Assembly: GCF_947496485.1 (NCBI RefSeq)
Contig: NZ_CANMCZ010000002.1
Location: 124,001 to 188,000, forward strand
DNA length: 64,000 nucleotides
Direction of reading: 5' to 3'
From: an uncultured Winogradskyella sp.
GTDB lineage: Bacteria; Bacteroidota; Bacteroidia; Flavobacteriales; Flavobacteriaceae
Below are positions 7,882 to 39,041 of this stretch, piece after piece (the stretch's first letter is position 1; each line of letters starts with the position of its first letter). The position numbers were made by a program, and so were the translations under genes. The notes under the pieces are model-generated. The model saw nothing but the letters and a program-made list of their open reading frames with translations, was not told the origin of the DNA and made no database searches.

Positions 7882-10800
7882 TTAATCAATATACTCTAAT
7901 AAATCTGTAATCAATGTTTCTGCCTTATTTTCCCAATCATCATCAAAATTATCCCAATAAGTTAAACTATCAAACATTTTAAAATCGGTACTTTGAGATA
8001 GTCCTTTTATTGGTCCAACTATACCAATATAATTTGCATCTTCATCAGATTCTTCTGAGTTATAACTGAATTTAAGAACATAAAAATCTTGCTTATTCTT
8101 AGTAATTGTCTTTGTAATGTCTATTCTATCTGGATATCCATTTTCCTCACCAGCATAGTTGTAAAATGACAATTTTGCGAATGCCTTTGGCTTTAGATAT
8201 ATTTTTTCAATTTCTGAAAATCTATTTTGTTTGTGGTAGGCTTCCATTATTTCGTATTGAAAATACTTATCCTCTAAATACTTGTTTTTTATGTCTTTAG
8301 GAGTATTATAATTATTGAATATTCTCGCAATAATAGCTTGCAGTTTCATCCATTTGTCATAATCTCCATCTATAATTTTTAGGGTGAAAGTGTCACAGAT
8401 TTTACTATCACTTTTTATAGTGTTTAAGTATCTTAGATATGTATACATTAAACTGTCATAAGTTCCATCGTCTTCATTTTCGGTTTCCGATTGTTTAAAA
8501 AAGTAATCAGAATCTGTTTTTAAGAACTCAAGAATTTTGTTTTGATTATTTTGTATTACGTTTTTTGCTTCTAATTCAGAGGTAAAAATATTCTTGGAAA
8601 TATCTATTAAGTCGCCTCTGTATTGAATGTATGGCATTAATTTAAGTAGCTTATCATAGTTTTCTAAAGCATAATTTAAAGAATCATTAAATGGCTGTAA
8701 AATGTCGTAGCTGTAAGAATCTTTTTCAATTGGTGGATTGGCAAATAATAGCTTGTTATAGACTGTTAAGCTGCCAGTAGATTCAATCTCAGGAATAGCA
8801 GATAAAACAGATGCTTTTAGATTATCCGAAGTGTCAGATTTATTGTAAAACTCCTCTAAAACCTTAATAGAAGATTCATCATTAATAAGCGAAAGCTCAT
8901 ATATGATTTTTGCTTTTATTATGTCGTTTTTTTCTTGTGAAAAATCATAATCTAAGGCTTGATGTAAGTCTGCTAACTCATCCTTATTATATTCATAGTA
9001 ATCGAATGACTTTAACGCTAGGTCATAGATAATTGAATCCTTTGATTTTAAATCCTCAATAATATACTTAGCTTTAGATTCAAAAATATTGAAATCAGTC
9101 TTTGCGGTATTCATTCTTATGGAATTAAATACGCGTTCTACTATTCCGCTATTGGCTTCTTCATCACTCACAATAGCTTTTGCCAACTGAATTCTATTAT
9201 TATTCAACCAAATACGACATATTCGTTGTCTTTTTGTTTTTAAGTGTAGTCTGTTTTTTACAGAAAACTCAACAATAGAATCACCATCTTTTGTAAAAAT
9301 TCTTTCTCTAACAATGCTATCATTATATTCTACTTCACTATTTTTATATAAATCTAAAAAGGCTTTATAAGTTGGTGTTCTAAAGTATTTTCTAATATTA
9401 GAATATCCATATTGATAAACACCGCCTGTAGCAGGGTTTACAGTAGCATAATCATGAGAATCGACTACTTGAGAGTTTTCATAATCAGATGAATCAATAG
9501 ATTCGGTAACATTTTCGAATAGCTGTATATCAAAACTTTTATCTGATGGGGAATAATCCTTTAAAACAGATGCTTTATAGGGCTGCATCGTAAAACTTTT
9601 AAAAAATGGACCATCAGTAGTTGCTTTTTCGGTTGTAGATATTTTTTGTTTTAGTAATAAATAGGTTCTGTTACCTCTAAAATATACTCTCGCTATAGAA
9701 TGAAATTTATCATTAATACTTATTTCGTATTCTCTCCCTTCAATACCATCTAGGTAAATAACTTTTGGCTCCGATAATAATGTAGCTTTTTGAGTTAAAG
9801 AAGTTTTAGTGCCTTCAAAAGCAGATTCAGGTGATTCTATGAAATAACCAATCGGTTGGTCATTATATCTAAACAAATAATTATTCTTGTTTTTAGTATC
9901 CATAGCCATATAGAGATTAAGAAAATAGGGTTCTCCTTCTGGATCTAGAGGGTTTGGAGATTCTCTAGACAGGTCTTTCGGTTCTGTTGGTATTTCTATT
10001 GAAAAAGCACCTTTTTCACTTTTAAATTCTTGCCATTGAACAGTTTTGATTTTTTGTTCGACACCGTTTACTACAATTGAATTTAAAAAGCGATTTACAT
10101 AATTTTCTTCAATTTGTTCCTTGGGTGTTTCAACAGAAAAATAATAGAAATGATTATTTTTTAGAACAAATCTAGATTTCATTATTCTTTTATCAGGCAA
10201 TTCACTGGTAACATCATAAGCAACTTTATCTGTATCAGGTAATTTGTCTTTGCTTATGATTTCAGCTTCACGCTTTTCCATCATATTAGAAATCATTTTT
10301 TCCATTAACACATCAATTTGAGAATCTTCTAAATTATAACTCAGACTCAATCCCATAAAAAGATAGGTCGTGTTAGTTGTCATATCACCATAACCTTTTA
10401 CAGTGAAATTATCGTTTCCTTCTTCTATGTTTGGTGCTTTTGGAATTTCTAAATAATAGCCTAAATCATCATTAATATAATTATACCAAAAACCTTTTGA
10501 AGGATCTATTTTATAACTATCTGCTACTCCAGTAAATTTGGCTTCAACTGCAGTGACTTTATAACCTTCATTCTGTAATAATTCAATAACACTTTCTTTA
10601 CCTACTAAATGCGCAGCTCCAACTCCAGCAAATATGCTTCCTTTTTTCATAAACTTGATGATACTATTACTCATCACTTTATTTCGTGAAATCATATTGG
10701 TGTTTTCATGATCATACTTATTAATGAAAGCTTCGATTTTAGAGAGATCACCAGTTTGATAAATAGTGGTCATGAGTTCTTTACTTCTTTTAAGACTATC

Positions 10801-11415
10801 AATCTCAACATTTAAATTATCAAGTACTTGTTTTATTTTATTTTCATCTGATAAATTATCGAAATAGCTAACCTGATCGTCAATGGCTTCTAATCCTACA
10901 ATGTCTTTATTCATAGTCCTTGCATGACCTAATAGGTACATATCTACAGATGTAGATTTGTCATCTTCTTTTTCTTCCTGTGGTATAAGGAGAGATAAAA
11001 CAACATCTGGACTCATAATCTCCGAGTCTTTCAAAGAATAATCATTAATAGCTTCAAATCGTTTTAATAAACGTTTGTAATCTCTTGGTTTTAATAGTTT
11101 TTTGTAAAAATTATTTGCATTGATGTCATATTTCTTATTGGTAAAAGCAACCATGATAGAATCAGGATTTATCTCTAAGGCAAAATACTTAACACTTTCT
11201 ATTGCTGGTATTACCGCATCACTAAAATTGAATGCTCTTGCATCTTCAACATGCATGGTGCCGAATAAGTATGAAGGTGAACTTGTGTCTTTTCCTTCAA
11301 TTTTCCAAAGTAAAGAGTAATTACTTTCGTCTTGAGCAAACGATTGTTGCGACAGAAGACTTAAAAGTAAAAACCAATAAATTGAAAAACTTATTCTAAA
11401 AATTCGGTAGTGCAT
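7882..11415 (-). CDS. TraB/GumN-domain protein with a very large C-terminal extension
   Basis: 1177 residues with a signal peptide (1-27, ending QQSFA). Residues about 35-300 are a TraB/GumN (PF01963) domain: LFGTMH near its start and GVGAAHLVGKESV near its end provide the two GxxH motifs used as metal ligands in the TIKI/TraB protease-like family. The remaining roughly 870 residues carry no motif I recognise: a beta-rich middle with three similar-looking segments (each with a FxIxxP... or RVYF pattern) and an all-helical stretch (about 770-1000) resembling HEAT/TPR. TraB proteins are usually about 300 residues, so this is an unusual fusion. It is probably periplasmic. Confidence 0.85.
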   Translation of the reverse strand: MHYRIFRISFSIYWFLLLSLLSQQSFAQDESNYSLLWKIEGKDTSSPSYLFGTMHVEDARAFNFSDAVIPAIESVKYFALEINPDSIMVAFTNKKYDINANNFYKKLLKPRDYKRLLKRFEAINDYSLKDSEIMSPDVVLSLLIPQEEKEDDKSTSVDMYLLGHARTMNKDIVGLEAIDDQVSYFDNLSDENKIKQVLDNLNVEIDSLKRSKELMTTIYQTGDLSKIEAFINKYDHENTNMISRNKVMSNSIIKFMKKGSIFAGVGAAHLVGKESVIELLQNEGYKVTAVEAKFTGVADSYKIDPSKGFWYNYINDDLGYYLEIPKAPNIEEGNDNFTVKGYGDMTTNTTYLFMGLSLSYNLEDSQIDVLMEKMISNMMEKREAEIISKDKLPDTDKVAYDVTSELPDKRIMKSRFVLKNNHFYYFSVETPKEQIEENYVNRFLNSIVVNGVEQKIKTVQWQEFKSEKGAFSIEIPTEPKDLSRESPNPLDPEGEPYFLNLYMAMDTKNKNNYLFRYNDQPIGYFIESPESAFEGTKTSLTQKATLLSEPKVIYLDGIEGREYEISINDKFHSIARVYFRGNRTYLLLKQKISTTEKATTDGPFFKSFTMQPYKASVLKDYSPSDKSFDIQLFENVTESIDSSDYENSQVVDSHDYATVNPATGGVYQYGYSNIRKYFRTPTYKAFLDLYKNSEVEYNDSIVRERIFTKDGDSIVEFSVKNRLHLKTKRQRICRIWLNNNRIQLAKAIVSDEEANSGIVERVFNSIRMNTAKTDFNIFESKAKYIIEDLKSKDSIIYDLALKSFDYYEYNKDELADLHQALDYDFSQEKNDIIKAKIIYELSLINDESSIKVLEEFYNKSDTSDNLKASVLSAIPEIESTGSLTVYNKLLFANPPIEKDSYSYDILQPFNDSLNYALENYDKLLKLMPYIQYRGDLIDISKNIFTSELEAKNVIQNNQNKILEFLKTDSDYFFKQSETENEDDGTYDSLMYTYLRYLNTIKSDSKICDTFTLKIIDGDYDKWMKLQAIIARIFNNYNTPKDIKNKYLEDKYFQYEIMEAYHKQNRFSEIEKIYLKPKAFAKLSFYNYAGEENGYPDRIDITKTITKNKQDFYVLKFSYNSEESDEDANYIGIVGPIKGLSQSTDFKMFDSLTYWDNFDDDWENKAETLITDLLEYID

Positions 11416-11538
11416 TAGGCTTAATTTAGAGTTGAATATGTAAATATAAAAAGCAAATTAAAATAACTGAGATAATGAGGATATTTTACAGATATAAACG
11501 ATTATAGAATTAAATAAACGAAATCAAAGTATTCTCAT

Positions 11539-11546
11539 TAAATTTG
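11539..11546 (+). promoter_or_regulatory. -7 box of the pabB promoter
   Basis: TAAATTTG is a full match to TAnnTTTG. No clear -33 element is visible. Its last three bases form an in-frame TTG that could be mistaken for the gene's start; transcription would begin just downstream, which favours the TTG at 11565 as start. Confidence 0.5.
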
Positions 11547-11564
11547 CGATGTACAATATTTTCC

Positions 11565-12857
11565 TTGAGAACCAAGCACTACCATAATACTCGCAATATT
11601 GATAAATTTAAGCAAGATCTCTTGTGCTGGAGTCAGCAATTCGATGATGTTGTTTGGCTAGATTCCAATAGTCATAAGAGCAAATACAATTGCTATGATG
11701 CGGTCTTAGCTGTTGATGCATTTACAGCTTTAAAAACAGATTATTTTGATGCTTTTGAGAGCTTGTCAGAATATCAAAAATCAACAAAAGATTGGATTTT
11801 TGGTTATCTCACTTATGATTTAAAAAACACAACAGAGCAGTTAACATCTGAAAATTTTGATGGTTTAGATTTCCCTGAATTGTACTTTTTTCAGCCAAAA
11901 AAGTTATTCTTATTAAAAGATAATAAGGTTGAGCTACAATACTTAAAAATGGTTGATGATGAAATTGAAGATGACCTATTAGAAATAGAGAAATGCAAAA
12001 GCCCGAAAGTCCAAAAGTCTAAAAGTCCAATAAAAATAAAACTAAGAATTCATAAAGACGAGTATTTTAATAAGGTTAGCACAATGCTTGCACATATCCA
12101 AAGAGGTGATATTTACGAAGCCAATTTTTGCCAAGAGTTTTATGCAGAGGATAGTATGATTAATCCACTAGAAACATTCAATAAGCTCAATGATATTTCT
12201 CAACCACCTTTTGCAACTTTTTTAAAAGTTGAGGATAAATTTCTCTTATCGGCAACACCAGAGCGTTATATCAAAAAAGAAGGTAAGAAAGTGATTTCGC
12301 AGCCTATAAAGGGTACAGCAAGGCGTTCAGAAAATAACGAAGAAGATTTAAAACTCGCCAAAGATTTGTCTAGTGATCAAAAAGAACGAAGTGAAAACAT
12401 TATGATAGTCGATTTAGTCCGTAATGATTTATCGCACACAGCTACAAAAGGAAGTGTAAAAGTTGAAGAGTTATGTAAAGTCTATTCGTTTTTGCAAGTA
12501 CATCAAATGATTTCTACCATTTCATCTCATGTGTCTGACGATATTAATCCGGTTGAGATAATAACAACAACATTCCCAATGGGTAGTATGACAGGAGCAC
12601 CAAAAATTTCTGCTATGAAGATCATTGAAGACTTAGAAGAAACAAAACGTGGATTATACTCTGGTTCCGTGGGTTATTTTGCGCCTAATGGTGATTTCGA
12701 CTTTAATGTTATTATTAGGAGTATTCTGTATAATAAATCAAAAAAGTATATTTCTTATTCGGTTGGTAGTGCTATAACTTCAAAGAGTAACCCTCTTAAG
12801 GAATACGAAGAGTGTCTAGTTAAGGCTAAAGCGATGAGAGAAGTTTTGGAAAATTGA
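11565..12857 (+). CDS. pabB: Aminodeoxychorismate synthase component I
   Basis: About 430 residues from TTG at 11565 (MRTKHYHNTRNIDKFKQ); a TTG at 11544 would add seven residues but sits in the promoter box. The chorismate-binding domain fills residues 165-430: GDIYEANFCQEF, QPIKGTARR, KERSENIMIVDLVRNDL, FPMGSMTGAPK and GLYSGSVGYF. Lys in PIKGT marks aminodeoxychorismate synthase rather than anthranilate synthase (PIAGT). With an amidotransferase partner encoded elsewhere it makes 4-amino-4-deoxychorismate for folate. A Lys/Ser/Pro-rich linker at about 145-157 is encoded by an 8-bp repeat array (12000-12031). Confidence 0.9.
   Translation: MRTKHYHNTRNIDKFKQDLLCWSQQFDDVVWLDSNSHKSKYNCYDAVLAVDAFTALKTDYFDAFESLSEYQKSTKDWIFGYLTYDLKNTTEQLTSENFDGLDFPELYFFQPKKLFLLKDNKVELQYLKMVDDEIEDDLLEIEKCKSPKVQKSKSPIKIKLRIHKDEYFNKVSTMLAHIQRGDIYEANFCQEFYAEDSMINPLETFNKLNDISQPPFATFLKVEDKFLLSATPERYIKKEGKKVISQPIKGTARRSENNEEDLKLAKDLSSDQKERSENIMIVDLVRNDLSHTATKGSVKVEELCKVYSFLQVHQMISTISSHVSDDINPVEIITTTFPMGSMTGAPKISAMKIIEDLEETKRGLYSGSVGYFAPNGDFDFNVIIRSILYNKSKKYISYSVGSAITSKSNPLKEYEECLVKAKAMREVLEN
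12000..12031 (+). repeat. Four 8-bp AGTCTAAA-type repeats inside pabB
   Basis: Units AGCCCGAA, AGTCCAAA, AGTCTAAA and AGTCCAAT in direct tandem. They encode part of KCKSPKVQKSKSPIK between the N-terminal and chorismate-binding domains. The unit and the 8-base period match the intergenic TCTAA arrays at 41818-41855, 42214-42279 and 43709-43755. Confidence 0.75.
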
Positions 12858-14220: not shown

Positions 14221-14305
14221 AATCCTATATTTTAAAATGTTCCTATAAAGCTACCCAATAAGATAACGATTTTTTATGACAATTATCATTTTATAATAAC
14301 TAGAA

Positions 14306-14335
14306 TTGTGTGCCTTTGCCTTTATTGTATCTTTA
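14306..14335 (+). promoter_or_regulatory. Promoter of tilS
   Basis: TTG at 14306-14308, 19-base spacer, TATCTTTA at 14328-14335 (one base off TAnnTTTG). The box ends only four bases before the ATG at 14340, so the transcript would be leaderless or nearly so. Confidence 0.6.
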
Positions 14336-14339
14336 CATA

Positions 14340-15656
14340 ATGCTAAAAATCTTTAAAAAACATATAGACACTAACTTAGTATTTCTAAGAGAAACACGAT
14401 TATTAATTGCCGTTTCGGGAGGCATCGATAGTGTTGTTTTATCATATTTGTGTAAAGAATTAGAACTAGACTTTGCCTTAGCACATTGTAATTTCAATCT
14501 CAGAGGTGAAGAAAGCAATGCAGATGAAGAATTTGTATTAGAGCTTGCTGAAGAATTAGATGTAGAAGTGTTTATTCAAAATTTTGACACACAAACTTAT
14601 GCAGATGAGCATAAACGTTCTATCCAAATGGCTGCACGTGAATTGCGGTATGACTGGTTTAAGGAATTAGAAGAGCAATTAAATTATGATTATATCTTAA
14701 CTGCACATCATGCAGACGATAATCTTGAAACCTTTTTAATCAATTTTACGCGCGGAACAGGTTTAAATGGCTTAACAGGAATTCCAGAAGTTAATGATAA
14801 CATCGTAAGGCCTTTGTTACAATTTTCTAGAGAGCAGATTGAAGCTTATGCTAAAGAAAATAGCATTAAATGGCGAGAGGATAGTAGTAATTCTTCTCGA
14901 AAATACTTGAGAAATAAATTACGTCATGAAGTAGTGCCTATCTTGAAAGAAATTAATCCACAATTACTAAATAGTTTTCAAAGTACTTTAATTAATCTTA
15001 ATGATACTGCAGATATCGTTGAAGAAAGCCTCAATGCAGTTGCAAAGCGCGCTATTACTAATATTGATGATAATGGTGTGACTTATAAAGTCTCAGAATT
15101 TAAAAAAGTTAATAATCCCAAAGCGTATTTATTTGAGATGTTTAAGGATTTTGGTTTTACCGAATGGAATGATGTTGTTGATTTATTAGACGCCCAATCT
15201 GGGAAGCAAGTTTTATCTAATACACATCGCTTAATAAAGCATCGTGAGTTTTTAATTCTAACAGATTTACGTCATTCCGAGCATAGCGATGAATCTTTTT
15301 TTATAAATGACAAAGTTAGCGAGGTTAAAACACCTTTAGGTATTTTGTTTTTTGATGAAGCTGAAGCCATCGTTAATTCTTCAAAAAGTATAGTTTTTGT
15401 CGATAGAGATAAGTTGAGTTTCCCGCTAGAATTAAGACTATGGAAAGAAGGAGATGTTTTTCGCCCACTAGGAATGAAAGGCAAAAAGAAAATCAGTAAA
15501 TACCTTAAAGATGAAAAATTGTCTTTAGTTGAAAAGGAAAATACCTGGGTTTTAACTTCAGAAGGTAATATTATTTGGGTTGTTGGTATGAGAGCTGACG
15601 AATGTTTTAGAGCTAAAGATAAAACAGAGGATATTCTAAAAATTGAATTGAAATAA
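14340..15656 (+). CDS. tilS: tRNA(Ile)-lysidine synthase
   Basis: 438 residues from ATG at 14340 (MLKIFKKHIDTNLVFL). A longer GTG-initiated frame from 14310 would run through the promoter box and is rejected. The N-terminal PP-loop ATPase domain has SGGIDS at the expected place, then HCNFNLRG, LTAHHADDNLET and the RPLL segment; the C-terminal TilS domain ends with WKEGDVFRPLGMKGKKKISKYLKDEK. It attaches lysine to C34 of the AUA-reading tRNA-Ile, an essential step. Residues about 309-320 (LRHSEHSDESFFIND) are encoded by an intergenic-type repeat, a lineage-specific insertion between the two domains. Confidence 0.95.
   Translation: MLKIFKKHIDTNLVFLRETRLLIAVSGGIDSVVLSYLCKELELDFALAHCNFNLRGEESNADEEFVLELAEELDVEVFIQNFDTQTYADEHKRSIQMAARELRYDWFKELEEQLNYDYILTAHHADDNLETFLINFTRGTGLNGLTGIPEVNDNIVRPLLQFSREQIEAYAKENSIKWREDSSNSSRKYLRNKLRHEVVPILKEINPQLLNSFQSTLINLNDTADIVEESLNAVAKRAITNIDDNGVTYKVSEFKKVNNPKAYLFEMFKDFGFTEWNDVVDLLDAQSGKQVLSNTHRLIKHREFLILTDLRHSEHSDESFFINDKVSEVKTPLGILFFDEAEAIVNSSKSIVFVDRDKLSFPLELRLWKEGDVFRPLGMKGKKKISKYLKDEKLSLVEKENTWVLTSEGNIIWVVGMRADECFRAKDKTEDILKIELK
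15271..15296 (+). repeat. REP-like GTCATTCCGAG...GAATCT element inside tilS
   Basis: The 26 bases begin GTCATTCCGAGCATAGCGA and end TGAATCT, followed by a T-run. I recognise this shape from dispersed intergenic repeats of flavobacteria (from memory). Here it is read in frame within tilS. Related palindromic elements are at 47919-47944 and 49790-49815. Confidence 0.6.
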
Positions 15657-34392: not shown

Positions 34393-35499
34393 ATGAAATA
34401 TTATTATCTATTATTTTTTAGTTTATTCCTTTTTAGCTGTACTGAGACAAATAAAGGAGAAACAGAGTCTGCCATAAAAGTTGAAACAGTAAAGATTCCA
34501 GTTTTAAACCTAGAAGAAGCCAACCGCTTAGTACAATTACCCTTACATTGTATGAATACAGAATATCCTAATAAACTTCAGCAAACTTTAGGTGGTGATG
34601 AAGACTTAAAATCACCAAAAGAACTGCATCCTGCATTTTATGGCTGTTTCGATTGGCATTCTGCTGTACATGGCCATTGGAGTTTGGTGAGTCTATTAAA
34701 ACAATTTCCAGATATAGATGGAAGAGCAGAAATTGAACAAAAATTACTTCAGAATATATCAAAGGAAAACATACAGCAAGAACTCATGTATTTTGAGGGT
34801 AAACATAATAAATCCTTTGAGCGTACATATGGTTGGGCATGGTTACTAAAGCTCGCTGAAGAATTGCATACATGGGATAATGACGTGGCAAGAGAATTAG
34901 AAACTAATCTTCAGCCAATGACAGATCTAATAGTTAATAAATACCTTGAATTTTTACCTAAGCTTAATTATCCAATTAGAGTTGGTGAGCACCCAAACAC
35001 AGCCTTTGGGTTAAGTTTTGCTTACGATTATGCATCAGCTTTAGATAATGAACAACTAGCAGATTTAATTGAGGAGCGAGCAAAAGACTTTTATAATGAT
35101 GATCAAAATTGCCCAATAGAATGGGAGCCAAGTGGTTTTGATTTTCTATCACCTTGTTTAGAAGAAGCGGCTTTAATGAAGCGGGTGCTTGAAATTGAAG
35201 AGTTTAAAGTTTGGATTAACGACTTTTTACCAGAATTAATTCAAAAGGATTTTGATATCGCTGTAGGTGAAGTATCAGACCGAACAGATGGAAAATTAGT
35301 ACATCTTGATGGTGTCAACTTCTCAAGAGCATGGAGTCTCAATTATATTGCTAAAGATTTACCAGAATACGTGCATTTAAAAAACATAGCTAACCAACAT
35401 ATCAATTATTCCTTACCAAGCATTGTTGGTGATAGTTATGAAGGTGGACATTGGTTAGGAAGTTTTGCTATTTATGCATTGAATTCTATAGATAAATGA
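34393..35499 (+). CDS. DUF2891 family lipoprotein
   Basis: 368 residues. Lipobox FLFSC (C16) after a short hydrophobic core; after Cys, TETNKGETES. The rest matches the DUF2891 family: LPLHCMNTEYPNKL, ELHPAFYGCFDWHSAVHGHW, the FERTYGWAWLLKLAEEL segment, HPNTAFGLSFAYDYA, FDFLSPCLEEA and a GGHWLGSFAIYAL end. Helical and Trp/His-rich, it looks like an alpha/alpha barrel with a conserved His-rich pocket, but no function is established. It overlaps the transporter gene by four bases (ATGA) and heads the 5-oxoprolinase operon, so it may act in uptake or processing of a glutamyl substrate. Confidence 0.85.
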   Translation: MKYYYLLFFSLFLFSCTETNKGETESAIKVETVKIPVLNLEEANRLVQLPLHCMNTEYPNKLQQTLGGDEDLKSPKELHPAFYGCFDWHSAVHGHWSLVSLLKQFPDIDGRAEIEQKLLQNISKENIQQELMYFEGKHNKSFERTYGWAWLLKLAEELHTWDNDVARELETNLQPMTDLIVNKYLEFLPKLNYPIRVGEHPNTAFGLSFAYDYASALDNEQLADLIEERAKDFYNDDQNCPIEWEPSGFDFLSPCLEEAALMKRVLEIEEFKVWINDFLPELIQKDFDIAVGEVSDRTDGKLVHLDGVNFSRAWSLNYIAKDLPEYVHLKNIANQHINYSLPSIVGDSYEGGHWLGSFAIYALNSIDK

Positions 35500-36722
35500 T
35501 AAATCGTTTTTTAAAAAATATTGGTCCAGGTCCTTTAGTAGCTGCTGCCTTTATTGGTCCAGGAACTGTAACCTTATGTACACTTGCTGGTGTCAATTTT
35601 GGTTATAATTTGCTTTGGGCAATGGTATTATCGGTTTTTGCGACTATTGTTTTGCAAGAAATGGCTGCACGTTTAGGTATTGTATCTCAAAAAGGATTAT
35701 CTGAAGTTATAAGACAAGAGTTAAAAAATCCTTTTGTAAAAGGATTTGCTATTGTATTAATCTTATCTGCAATTGTTGTAGGTAACGCAGCCTACGAAGC
35801 AGGGAATATTAGTGGTGGTGCTCTGGGAATGGAAACTGTTTTTGGTCAACCAAATATTACATTTGGCTCAATTAGCTTTAATGCTTACTCAGTTTTTATT
35901 GGTATGGTAGCATTTATATTGCTATATATTGGAAATTATAAAATACTTGAACGCATATTAGTAAGCCTTGTTATTTTAATGAGTTTGGCTTTTTTAGTTA
36001 CAGCTATAATTACAAAACCGAATTTGATGGATATTTTTAAAGGAGCTTTTATTCCTAGATTTCCTGAGAAAAGTATTCTGACCATCATTGGTCTTATTGG
36101 AACTACAGTTGTGCCTTACAATTTATTTCTGCATGCCTCATTGGTTAAAACTAAATGGAAAAATAAAAGTGATCTCAGTTTTGCCAGAAAAGATACCGTT
36201 ATTGCTGTTGCACTTGGTGGTATAGTATCAATGTGTATTATCATCTCTGCATCAGCAATTCCTTTTGAAGGAATTACTAACGCCTCGGATTTAGCAAAAG
36301 GACTTGAACCTTTATTTGGTGTTTATGCAAAGTACTTTCTGTCCATTGGTTTATTTGCTGCAGGAATAACAAGTGCAATTACAGCTCCTTTAGCTGCAGC
36401 TTTTGTTGCAACTGGTTGCTTGGGCTGGAGTGGTAATATGAAGTCAAAGCAGTTTAGAGGTGTCTGGATGTTTATATTGGGCTTAGGTGTTGTTTTTTCT
36501 TCAATAGGTCTTAAATCTATTGAGATTATAAAATTTGCCCAGGTTGCTAATGGTTTACTATTACCTATTATTGCAGGCTTCTTGCTTTGGGTAATGAATA
36601 AATCTTCTGTGCTTGGTTCCTACAAAAATTCAAAGCTCCAGAATATTTTCGGAATAGTAATTTTGGTTATTACGATTTTTTTAGGAGTAAAAGGGATTTT
36701 GAGCGTGTTTAAAATAATCTAA
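35496..36722 (+). CDS. Nramp-family transporter lacking the metal-binding motifs
   Basis: 408 residues with about 11 membrane helices in the Nramp/LeuT-fold order. TM1 reads GPGPLVAAAFIGPGTVTLC: GPGT at 21-24 replaces the canonical DPGN whose Asp and Asn bind the metal. TM6 reads VPYNLFLHASLV: VPYN at 206-209 replaces MPH, whose Met is also a metal ligand. With both ligand sets gone, divalent metal transport is unlikely. The gene abuts pxpA and overlaps the DUF2891 gene; in Bacillus subtilis an Nramp homologue (ycsG) also neighbours ycsF/kipI/kipA. The likely substrate is 5-oxoproline or a related amino acid (inference). Confidence 0.85.
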   Translation: MINRFLKNIGPGPLVAAAFIGPGTVTLCTLAGVNFGYNLLWAMVLSVFATIVLQEMAARLGIVSQKGLSEVIRQELKNPFVKGFAIVLILSAIVVGNAAYEAGNISGGALGMETVFGQPNITFGSISFNAYSVFIGMVAFILLYIGNYKILERILVSLVILMSLAFLVTAIITKPNLMDIFKGAFIPRFPEKSILTIIGLIGTTVVPYNLFLHASLVKTKWKNKSDLSFARKDTVIAVALGGIVSMCIIISASAIPFEGITNASDLAKGLEPLFGVYAKYFLSIGLFAAGITSAITAPLAAAFVATGCLGWSGNMKSKQFRGVWMFILGLGVVFSSIGLKSIEIIKFAQVANGLLLPIIAGFLLWVMNKSSVLGSYKNSKLQNIFGIVILVITIFLGVKGILSVFKII

Positions 36723-37466
36723 ATGGAGCCTATTTTTCAAATAGATATTAATGCAGATGTTGGTGAGGGAATCAACAACGAATCAGCGATAATGCCTTAT
36801 TTATCATCTTGTAATATTGCTTGTGGTGGACATGCAGGTGATTTAGAGACCATGACTAAAGTTGTGCAACTAGCAAAGCAGCACAATGTAAAAGTAGGTG
36901 CGCATCCTTCATTTCCTGATAAAAAGAACTTTGGAAGATTGGATATGAAAATTTCAGCTGCAGATTTATATAGCAGCTTAAAGCAACAAATACGAATGCT
37001 TCAAAACGTATTGTATATTCAAAAAAGTCAACTGCATCATATAAAGCCACACGGAGCTTTGTATAATATAGCTGCTAAAGATGAAAAAATTGCAACTGTT
37101 ATTGTTGAAGTGATGAAAAGTATAGCGCTACCCTTAAAATTGTATGCACCTTATAATTCAATTATCGCTGAATTGGCGCATAATGAAAATATTGAAGTAA
37201 CTTTTGAAGCCTTCGCGGATAGAAATTACAATGATGACTTATCTTTAGTATCTCGCAAAAATGCTAATGCCTTATTGACTGAAAATGACGATATATTGAG
37301 TCATATTCTAAATATGATAAAGCATCAAAATGTAATAACAGCTAGTGGAATAGAAGTGCCTATAAAAGCGTCAACATTTTGTGTACATGGTGATACCAAA
37401 AATGCAATTGAAATTTTGAAATTTCTAAATCAAGAATTACCAAAACATCAAATCTCAATTCAATAA
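36723..37466 (+). CDS. pxpA: 5-oxoprolinase subunit PxpA (LamB/YcsF family)
   Basis: 247 residues. DINADVGEGINNE, SSCNIACGGHAGDLETM, VGAHPSFPDKKNFGR, HHIKPHGALYNIAAK, TFEAFADRNYNDD and STFCVHGDTKNAIEI are the conserved LamB/YcsF motifs. PxpA with PxpB and PxpC forms the bacterial ATP-dependent 5-oxoprolinase, which opens 5-oxo-L-proline to glutamate. The start ATG follows the transporter stop with no gap, and pxpB follows after 5 bases. Length normal. Confidence 0.95.
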   Translation: MEPIFQIDINADVGEGINNESAIMPYLSSCNIACGGHAGDLETMTKVVQLAKQHNVKVGAHPSFPDKKNFGRLDMKISAADLYSSLKQQIRMLQNVLYIQKSQLHHIKPHGALYNIAAKDEKIATVIVEVMKSIALPLKLYAPYNSIIAELAHNENIEVTFEAFADRNYNDDLSLVSRKNANALLTENDDILSHILNMIKHQNVITASGIEVPIKASTFCVHGDTKNAIEILKFLNQELPKHQISIQ

Positions 37467-37471
37467 AATTT

Positions 37472-38200
37472 ATGATTTATAATCTTAAGTATTCTCGCTA
37501 TAATGAGTCTTCTATTTTGATAGAATGGAAAGCTATTATTGACGAAAATATACTTCAAGACGTGTTAAGGTTCAAATTTCTTATTGAAAATAATAATATT
37601 AAACAAAAAGTTGAAGTAATTAGCACATATAATTCACTTTTAATTGTTTATGATTATGCTATTGATAGTTTCAATAGCAAGATATTTACTCTAAAATCAC
37701 TGTATCTTCAACAAAATGAATCTGAAAGCACAAAACCTTCTCATTGGAAAATCCCAGTGTGCTATGCTGATCAATTTGCAATAGATTTAGAGAATTTTTC
37801 AAACCAAAAAAAACTTTCAAAATCTGAAATAACTAAGCTGCATTCCGATACCATTTATACTGTTTTTTTTATCGGATTTTTACCTGGGTTTCTGTACTTA
37901 GGAGGATTAGACTCTAGATTATTTTTAGACCGTAAAACGACTCCAAATCTAAATGTAAAAAAAGGGTCTGTTGCCATTGGAGGACAACAAACCGGAATAT
38001 ACCCTCAAGATAGTCCTGGTGGTTGGCATATCATTGGTAATTCACCAATAGAATTATTTAATACCAATTCTAATCCACCATGCTTTATTAAAGCGGGTGA
38101 TAAAATTCAATTCCAGTCTATTAGTGTTTCAGAACATAACACTATTACTAGAAGTTTGGAAAATTCGCTGTTTAATCTAAAATCATTAAAGTGTGATTAA
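37472..38200 (+). CDS. pxpB: 5-oxoprolinase subunit PxpB (KipI family)
   Basis: 242 residues. The C-terminal half carries the family motifs: HSDTIYTVFFIGFLPGFLYL, RKTTPNLNVKKGSVAIGGQQTG and YPQDSPGGWHIIGNSPIELF. The N-terminal domain is more divergent, as usual. PxpB pairs with PxpC; in Bacillus the homologue KipI also inhibits kinase A, but no such kinase is implied here. It overlaps pxpC by 8 bases. Confidence 0.93.
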   Translation: MIYNLKYSRYNESSILIEWKAIIDENILQDVLRFKFLIENNNIKQKVEVISTYNSLLIVYDYAIDSFNSKIFTLKSLYLQQNESESTKPSHWKIPVCYADQFAIDLENFSNQKKLSKSEITKLHSDTIYTVFFIGFLPGFLYLGGLDSRLFLDRKTTPNLNVKKGSVAIGGQQTGIYPQDSPGGWHIIGNSPIELFNTNSNPPCFIKAGDKIQFQSISVSEHNTITRSLENSLFNLKSLKCD

Positions 38201-39041
38201 AGTATTAAAGTCAGGATTTTACAGTAACATTCAAGATCAAGGACGATTTGGATATAGAAATTATGGTGTTCCTATATCTGGTGCTATGGATTTGTATTCT
38301 TGTGAATTTGCTAATGCTTTATTAGGTAATTCTAAGAGATGTGCAACTTTAGAAATTACAATGGTTGGTCCAAAACTTCAATTTTTAAAACCTACAAGTA
38401 TTGCTATTTCTGGTGCACATATGAAACCTAAATTAAATGATGTACCTATTGAGGTAAATTCAGTAATAGCAATAGAAAGTAATGATATACTCAGTTTTGG
38501 TAGATTAGACAAAGGATTTAGAAGTTACTTAGCTGTTAAAGGAGGATTTATTACTGAGCAGGTTTTTAAAAGCAGAAGCATGTTTAATAATATTACCAAG
38601 ACCAAGTATCTTTCTATTGATGATAGTATTGGTTATTTAGATGTAAATCGAGAATTTAAAAATTCAAATGCGCATGTTAAATTTGACAATTCGATATTAG
38701 ACAGCAATAACCTTGAGGTTTATAAAGGACCAGAATTTGAAAGGCTTTCTAGTGACCAAAAGAATAGATTGTTTCATTCAGAATTGAAGGTTTCTAAGCT
38801 TAATAACAGAATGGCCTATCAGTTGGAGCCCTTGTTAGAAAACACATTAATGCCAATATTAACGGCTCCAGTTTTACCAGGAACAATTCAATTAACTCCA
38901 AAAGGACAATTGATTGTTTTGATGCGAGACTGTCAAACTACAGGTGGTTATCCTAGAATTCTTCAACTAACTGAAAAGGCTATAAACGTTTTAAGCCAAA
39001 AAACAACAGGTAAAAGATTAAAAATCAGTCTAAAAGACTAA
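38193..39041 (+). CDS. pxpC: 5-oxoprolinase subunit PxpC (KipA, biotin-dependent carboxyltransferase-like)
   Basis: 282 residues from GTG at 38193 (MIKVLKSGFYSNIQDQGRFG). Seen: QDQGRFGYRNYGVPISGAMD, LEITMVGPKLQFL, DKGFRSYLAVKGGF, the KLNNRMAYQLEP segment and the closing GTIQLTPKGQLIVLMRDCQTTGGYPRI. It completes the PxpABC complex. Family members are about 300-330 residues; this one is slightly short. Last gene of the operon; 89 bases separate it from the next gene. Confidence 0.93.
   Translation: MIKVLKSGFYSNIQDQGRFGYRNYGVPISGAMDLYSCEFANALLGNSKRCATLEITMVGPKLQFLKPTSIAISGAHMKPKLNDVPIEVNSVIAIESNDILSFGRLDKGFRSYLAVKGGFITEQVFKSRSMFNNITKTKYLSIDDSIGYLDVNREFKNSNAHVKFDNSILDSNNLEVYKGPEFERLSSDQKNRLFHSELKVSKLNNRMAYQLEPLLENTLMPILTAPVLPGTIQLTPKGQLIVLMRDCQTTGGYPRILQLTEKAINVLSQKTTGKRLKISLKD

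Follow-up and report, generated by a model that had tools for sequence, protein, structure and literature searches.

A candidate 5-oxoproline importer of the Nramp fold, without metal ligands, encoded beside 5-oxoprolinase genes in Winogradskyella

The DNA analysed here, referred to as the window, is a stretch of 64,000 nucleotides from an uncultured Winogradskyella sp. (contig NZ_CANMCZ010000002.1, positions 124,001 to 188,000). It carries a run of five genes on one strand in the order DUF2891, Nramp-fold transporter, pxpA, pxpB and pxpC (Table 1), and the second of these, the transporter gene, is considered here as a candidate gene for uptake of 5-oxoproline. It is an open frame of 408 amino acids (aa) with an ATG start, which shares four bases (35496-35499) with the stop of the DUF2891 gene, and the first base of pxpA is the base directly after the transporter stop. 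A gap of 5 bases separates pxpA from pxpB, and pxpB and pxpC overlap by 8 bases. From this packing, the five genes probably form one co-transcribed operon. PxpA and PxpB each passed an NCBIfam cut-off; PxpC remained below those of NF045499 and TIGR00724, yet was clear in Pfam. The three genes lie side by side, the arrangement by which a PxpABC 5-oxoprolinase operon is recognised.

Table 1. Genes and transporter segments of the run, with positions in the window
Feature	Position	Strand	Evidence
DUF2891 protein (PF11199), predicted lipoprotein, first gene of the run	34393..35499	+	Open reading frame (ORF), Pfam match
Transporter of the Nramp fold lacking metal ligands; putative 5-oxoproline (cyclic amide) importer	35496..36722	+	ORF, Pfam, alignment, model
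Segment G21-P22-G23-T24 of transmembrane helix 1 (TM1), replacing metal-binding DPGN	35556..35567	+	Alignment; modelled helix interrupted at residues 20-21
Asn104 of TM3, replacing Glu of aligned canonical and NRMT proteins	35805..35807	+	Alignment
Segment TTVVPYN of TM6 (residues 203-209), replacing AxVMPHN	36102..36122	+	Alignment; modelled helix interrupted at residues 205-206
pxpA (LamB/YcsF), 5-oxoprolinase subunit A	36723..37466	+	NF003814, 251.6 bits (cut-off 226)
pxpB, 5-oxoprolinase subunit B	37472..38200	+	TIGR00370, 160.8 bits (cut-off 145.55)
pxpC, 5-oxoprolinase subunit C	38193..39041	+	Pfam CT_A_B clear; under NCBIfam cut-offs

The transporter belongs to the Nramp superfamily (PF01566, 306 bits against a cut-off of 29.8). 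The Nramp metal site is defined in published work as DxxN in TM1 and A/CxxM in TM6, and the Mg-type NRMT proteins carry DxxG-TxxA/T (PMC8806188). The window transporter instead has GxxT in TM1 and TxxV in TM6, where residues 21-24 read GPGT and residues 203-209 TTVVPYN, whereas the canonical rows of the alignment read DPGN and AxVMPH. An earlier sequence-only reading of this DNA had pointed out GPGT, VPYN and the absence of the Asp, Asn and Met ligands, as well as the abutment with pxpA and the overlap with the preceding gene, and all of this was confirmed. GxxT and TxxV occurred in all 76 aligned rows of the clade, and G21, T24, N104, T203, V206 and Y208 were invariant in them, whereas the 21 canonical rows uniformly had D, N, E, A, M and H at these positions. 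The TM3 Glu that gives way to Asn in every clade row was present in all 21 canonical and all five NRMT rows; it is reported to contact Mn in a clade B Nramp structure (PMC12873925). A second sample consisted of 80 loci from named genomes, the best 80 of 596 confirmed stretches, nearly all titled flavobacteria (L134 is titled Alcanivoracaceae) and overlapping the 76-row alignment by 14 loci. Here, the TM1 motif was GPGT in 79 loci and GPGS in one, and the TM6 motif was TTVVP in all but one, which had TTVVL.

An AlphaFold2 model of the transporter (37-sequence input; mean predicted local distance difference test score, 86) matched NRMT and Nramp structures best, with LeuT-fold amino acid transporters ranking lower. 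On the alignment and this model, the predicted central TM1/TM6 site is devoid of Asp, Asn, Met, His and the TM3 Glu and has small or neutral polar residues in their place. G21, T24, N104, T203, V206, Y208 and N209 are the conserved residues of this putative site, which would be fit to receive a neutral ring, or a carboxylate bound through main-chain amides, comparable to the arrangement in same-fold amino acid transporters.

The genes around the transporter were then compared across relatives. Among the 80 named-genome loci, pxpA lay on the same strand within 500 bp in 73 and at 1.3 and 4.1 kb in two others. When 198 Bacteroidota genomes were searched with the window protein, 130 contained relatives, and the genes around 30 high-identity members, 17 distant GPGT members and 37 Nramps of other types were read, with flanks of 1.5 kb for the high-identity loci, ca. 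9 kb for the distant clade (ca. 5 kb in two) and ca. 5 kb for the other Nramps used as controls (shorter in two). The transporter adjoined pxpA in 26/30 high-identity loci and in 0/17 distant ones, eight of which had HyuA, subunit A of a hydantoinase/oxoprolinase, within 7 kb. No pxp, hyu or DUF2891 gene was found in the stretch covered at any of the 37 other Nramp loci (21 DPGN, five DAGG and 11 of further types). Linkage to a lactam enzyme therefore amounted to 34/47 in the clade vs. 0/37 in the other Nramps, between groups that differ in flank length. The linkage of the transporter with pxpA was far above chance. At L042 and L117, the inserts between transporter and pxpA carry opposite-strand ORFs. 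At L039, the transporter is flanked by DUF2891 and, downstream, by a gamma-glutamyltranspeptidase gene (9896-11629), and pxpA lies elsewhere in that genome. Viral contigs gave 101 pattern matches, none of them a relative, and six distant Nramp matches on plasmids of Rhizobium, Sinorhizobium, Mesorhizobium, Pantoea and Ketogulonicigenium had no pxp or hyu annotated beside them in gene tables that are incomplete.

The association extended to whole genomes. The clade was recognised in 49 of the 198 Bacteroidota genomes (47 of them from the motif, G008 at 39% identity and G128 from a fragment at 53%), a count that covers matches at least as strong as those listed in the survey. All 49 encoded PxpA or hydantoinase/oxoprolinase A (Hyu_A), compared with 33/149 of the other genomes; Fisher's test gave 1e-24, a value that overstates independence because the genomes are related; they span 25 genera. 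Genomes with high-identity members encoded PxpA in 31/31 cases (one of these members is a fragment), and those with distant members encoded Hyu_A (12/18) or PxpA (6/18), never both. PxpA was counted in 47 genomes, leaving out the sub-threshold G106, and Hyu_A in 35. Hyu_A exceeded the cut-off in 37 genomes; G130 and G182, both pxpA genomes with partial matches of 71-74 residues barely reaching it, were set aside, and G005, with a 94-residue match containing a stop, was retained. With G130 and G182 set aside, PxpA and Hyu_A shared none of the 198 genomes, as though one lactamase stood in for the other.

Outside Bacteroidota, clade members with 44-50% identity were found on haloarchaeal plasmids directly before hyuA. 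HyuA adjoined the transporter in 12 of 13 haloarchaeal loci (once seen by tblastn at the record end); these were 13 of 23 records listed, and two of them have identical transporters. In the tree, Hyu-linked members occurred in two places, namely inside the distant Bacteroidota group and as a haloarchaeal group beside the pxp-linked group. PxpABC is described as having no similarity to caprolactamase and the carboxylases of the HyuA/HyuB enzyme family (PMC8453981). At L047, the run consists of DUF2891 (14227-15513), a fused hydantoinase/oxoprolinase of 1279 aa and then the transporter with a 4-base overlap, and at L054 and L055, same-strand fused enzymes (1341 and 1331 aa) are separated from the transporter by other ORFs. 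Eukaryotic 5-oxoprolinases are likewise reported as fused subunits of about 1250 residues (PMC8453981), a layout matched by the L047 enzyme. Since close members mostly adjoin pxpA and many distant Bacteroidota and most haloarchaeal members adjoin HyuA/HyuB, the transporter stays while the unrelated ring-opening enzyme is swapped and the lactam chemistry is kept.

The gene heading the run encodes a homologue of Campylobacter jejuni Cj0554 (PDB 8ieu/8iev) whose N-terminus resembles that of a lipoprotein (LFLFSC, by visual inspection). A same-strand DUF2891 gene lay within 250 bp of the transporter in 50/80 named-genome loci, and the family stands beside the transporter with two different oxoprolinase types (the window and L047). 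The helical model of the DUF2891 protein had a good match only to the solved family member, with glycoside hydrolases and epimerases matching weakly; a literature search by its PDB codes yielded no paper on the structure. A C. jejuni mutant lacking DUF2891 together with DUF969/DUF979 (cj0552-0553) could not use 5-oxoproline in what is described as a preliminary test (PMC12795558). DUF969/DUF979 thus share the proposed substrate and, in that mutant locus, the DUF2891 partner, although these families are unrelated to Nramp; when they were sought as an alternative transporter, no match reached the cut-off in any of the 198 Bacteroidota genomes. The transporter clade was present in 9/19 DUF2891 genomes (Fisher's test, 0.02). 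At 11 DUF2891 loci away from the transporter, no pxp, hyu or Nramp gene was found and the few neighbours scanned showed no shared theme; the tie of DUF2891 to 5-oxoproline therefore does not hold in all genomes. DUF2891 may contribute to substrate supply, a role that we treat as a lead.

Uptake of 5-oxoproline by members of the Nramp family has already been published for YcsG and PxpT; as a proposal, it is new for the GPGT/TTVVPYN branch. Deletion of pxpT is reported to stop growth of Corynebacterium glutamicum on 5-oxoproline, with complementation, and earlier work cited in the same paper found that ycsG deletion in Bacillus subtilis prevented 5-oxoproline use (PMC13274462). PxpT and YcsG are 50% identical (PMC13274462), and by the published identities PxpT groups with YcsG, that is, on a different branch from the window protein. 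The parallel with ycsG that had been drawn from the sequence holds at the superfamily level and not for closer kinship. The window protein was 25.6% identical to a YcsG-type protein encoded on a Bacillus badius plasmid between pxpA and a hydro-lyase (YcsI-like) gene, and its model showed 21% identity in structural alignment with the YCSG chain of 9a52, which we take to be the B. subtilis protein. The two types belong to the same Pfam family, share the fold of the 9a52 chain and are encoded with pxp genes. All 11 YcsG-type rows lacked the metal ligands and had Asn at the TM3 Glu position, and Y208 and N352 are common to both; the YcsG-type signature is GPGF/GGTVGGY (11/11), in contrast to GPGT/TTVVPYN in the window clade. 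In the tree, these 11 rows formed one branch (support 100/100) and 62 GPGT rows another (99/94). Joining the two was neither shown nor rejected (approximately unbiased test, p 0.485), in a deep tree limited by long branches and midpoint rooting. Judged on the B. badius protein and the 9a52 chain, the window protein has neither the identity nor the signature nor the branch position of a YcsG/PxpT orthologue; identity with YcsG was ruled out by the 25.6% figure and the separate branch. Because identities are only 25.6% and 21%, the YcsG data are not simply transferable to the window protein. YcsG-type proteins (E 1e-20) occurred in 7/198 Bacteroidota genomes and adjoined pxpA in six, and these six are among the 10 pxpA genomes without the window's clade.

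Four YcsG-type plasmid loci were inspected, three of which (L196, L207 and L209) carry a whole YcsI-like gene of the D-glutamate cyclase family. D-glutamate cyclase makes 5-oxo-D-proline. The ORFs of the Acinetobacter baumannii locus (L207:6001-12205) encode a YcsG-type Nramp (44% identical to that of B. badius), PxpA (LamB_YcsF), a D-glutamate cyclase-family protein (PF07286), a PxpB-PxpC fusion and a biotin carboxylase. By gene order and families, the locus corresponds to mumTLUHC, published as a 'manganese and urea metabolism' operon (PMC5050338), and judging by its genes this operon looks like one of the 5-oxoproline type. At another locus (L203:1453-1505), the tblastn match to the YcsG-type protein crosses a stop codon near its start, probably upstream of the true start.

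Other Nramp classes differ from the window transporter in their sites. EleNRMT (7qia/7qji) was the nearest solved fold to the model (TM-score 0.84, 25% identity), and NRMT-type rows also have Thr at the T203 position and no TM6 Met. However, NRMT keeps the TM1 Asp of its DxxG-TxxA/T signature (PMC8806188) and the TM3 Glu, both of which the window transporter lacks, and the five NRMT-type loci had no pxp or hyu neighbours. The Mg-type NRMT identity was rejected despite the nearest fold, since neither DxxG-TxxA/T nor the TM3 Glu is present and the branch is separate. Canonical Nramp/MntH/DMT1 proteins share the fold and the Pfam family, but their DxxN-A/CxxM site and TM3 Glu are all absent from the window transporter. 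The Slc11 'outgroup' of Cellier 2022 is described as PF01566 proteins without the Mn/H+ residues and with the ancestral TM3 Glu retained (PMC9606685); set against that description, the window protein has no Mn/H+ residues but has Asn for this Glu. Further Pfam Nramp subfamilies in Bacteroidota lack the canonical metal signature, and the window's own genome encodes a paralogue from one such subfamily. Their signatures include GTGS (L002:1411-2685, L174, L180, L184), GPGS (L158, L171, L179), GSGS (L169, L170), DPSG (L173, L175, L185) and GPGT/VTYN (L043-L046). At L043:6749-9717, the GPGT/VTYN transporter gene begins 12 bases after two same-strand 2-oxoacid:ferredoxin oxidoreductase-like genes and may carry another substrate.

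Taken together, the window transporter likely imports 5-oxoproline or a closely related cyclic amide. The DUF2891 lipoprotein at the cell surface would supply the substrate, and 5-oxoproline would enter via the neutral TM1/TM6 site, where glycines and prolines could leave backbone amides free for the carboxylate. A LeuT-type rocking cycle, coupled to some driving ion, would carry it inward, and PxpABC, encoded just downstream, would open it to glutamate as a source of nitrogen and carbon. A shared 5-oxoproline-type substrate explains the PxpABC, HyuAB and gamma-glutamyltranspeptidase partners, and metal supply explains none of them in particular. The claim of the sequence-only reading that this branch carries 5-oxoproline, not metals, is supported by the ligand loss and the linkage, and for this branch it is what we infer.

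Several observations weigh against this assignment. Linkage of GPGT/VPY proteins to pxp, set beforehand as the test that could refute it, held among close members, but the linkage is not universal: pxpA was not seen in 5/80 named-genome loci (one ends at a contig end), lies elsewhere in the genome in 4/30 high-identity survey loci (L029, L031, L033 and L034), and neither pxpA nor HyuA/HyuB was near 9/17 distant Bacteroidota members. Neither enzyme was near the plasmid members of Natrononativus (L147), Pseudoalteromonas (L146) and Qipengyuania (L148). The HyuA/HyuB partners had only sub-threshold matches to caprolactamase and acetophenone carboxylase in NCBIfam, the PDB chain of similar length nearest to the fused enzyme is labelled N-methylhydantoinase, and these partners could open hydantoins or other lactams. 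The open-licence PMC literature on 5-oxoproline and Nramp, on PxpT, Nramp and pyroglutamate, and on Nramp and hydantoinase, judged partly by title or the start of the abstract, contained no paper on the GPGT branch or its HyuAB link and no transport or growth data for it.

The transporter might instead carry a different cyclic amide or a compound of the gamma-glutamyl or pyroglutamyl type, such as hydantoins or short pyroglutamyl peptides, with 5-oxoproline formed inside the cell. Ring opening by HyuA/HyuB relatives is reported for several lactams and hydantoins (PMC8453981); in seven haloarchaeal loci, HyuB is followed by a racemase/isomerase-family gene, and the gamma-glutamyltranspeptidase gene follows the transporter at L039. 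However, the PxpABC that adjoins most close members is described as a 5-oxoprolinase (PMC13274462), and the L047 enzyme has the fused layout of the eukaryotic 5-oxoprolinase, which makes this alternative unlikely.

A divalent metal importer (Mn/Mg) merely encoded with 5-oxoprolinase, feeding the metal of PxpA or acting like published YcsG ('MntG') and MumT, is a still weaker candidate. Overproduction of YcsG is reported to raise cell Mn in B. subtilis, where it was described as a Mn importer with the argument that the earlier ycsG result left room for polar effects (PMC10448178), and a contribution of MumT to Mn accumulation is reported for A. baumannii (PMC5050338). The window transporter also scored above the cut-off of NCBIfam Nramp_1 ('divalent metal transporter'), although far under those of two MntH/Nramp models, and the window's own genome had no canonical DPGN protein among its PF01566 matches, so a metal role would not be covered by such a paralogue. 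Against these points stand the loss of all ligands throughout the clade, the Mn-contacting TM3 Glu included, and a lactam-enzyme linkage that the other Nramps did not show within their own flank lengths; moreover, the Mn reports concern the other branch, at about 26% identity. We therefore regard a metal role as very unlikely. Export of 5-oxoproline as overflow or detoxification has least to recommend it: the compound forms spontaneously, and in B. subtilis pxp mutants it builds up both within and outside the cells (PMC13274462), but packing with a degrading enzyme fits uptake better, PxpT and YcsG mutants reportedly lose growth on external 5-oxoproline (PMC13274462), and a predicted lipoprotein gene heads the run.

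A wider picture can be drawn tentatively, as possible rather than probable. At least two deep Nramp-fold branches (GPGT/TTVxxYN and GPGF/GGTVGGY) would carry lactams, the first keeping its substrate while unrelated ATP-dependent lactamases were swapped, and the label 'Nramp' would hide a large non-metal class. YcsG/MntG and MumT would be 5-oxoproline carriers with indirect effects on Mn, given a branch without metal ligands and loci encoding PxpA, PxpB/C and a D-glutamate cyclase-family protein, and DUF2891 would assist 5-oxoproline use from outside the cytoplasm. Since all 11 YcsG-type rows, that of L207 included, are without metal ligands, the assignment of YcsG and MumT to Mn seems worth rechecking.

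Automatic annotation calls such proteins metal transporters, and if the proposed function holds, many of these annotations are wrong. The published dispute over whether YcsG carries 5-oxoproline or imports Mn would then gain an argument at the level of residues. The exchange of PxpABC and HyuAB next to a single transporter clade offers a route to the substrates of the poorly annotated hydantoinase/oxoprolinase family, and the Nramp fold would be one scaffold for both metals and small organic rings.

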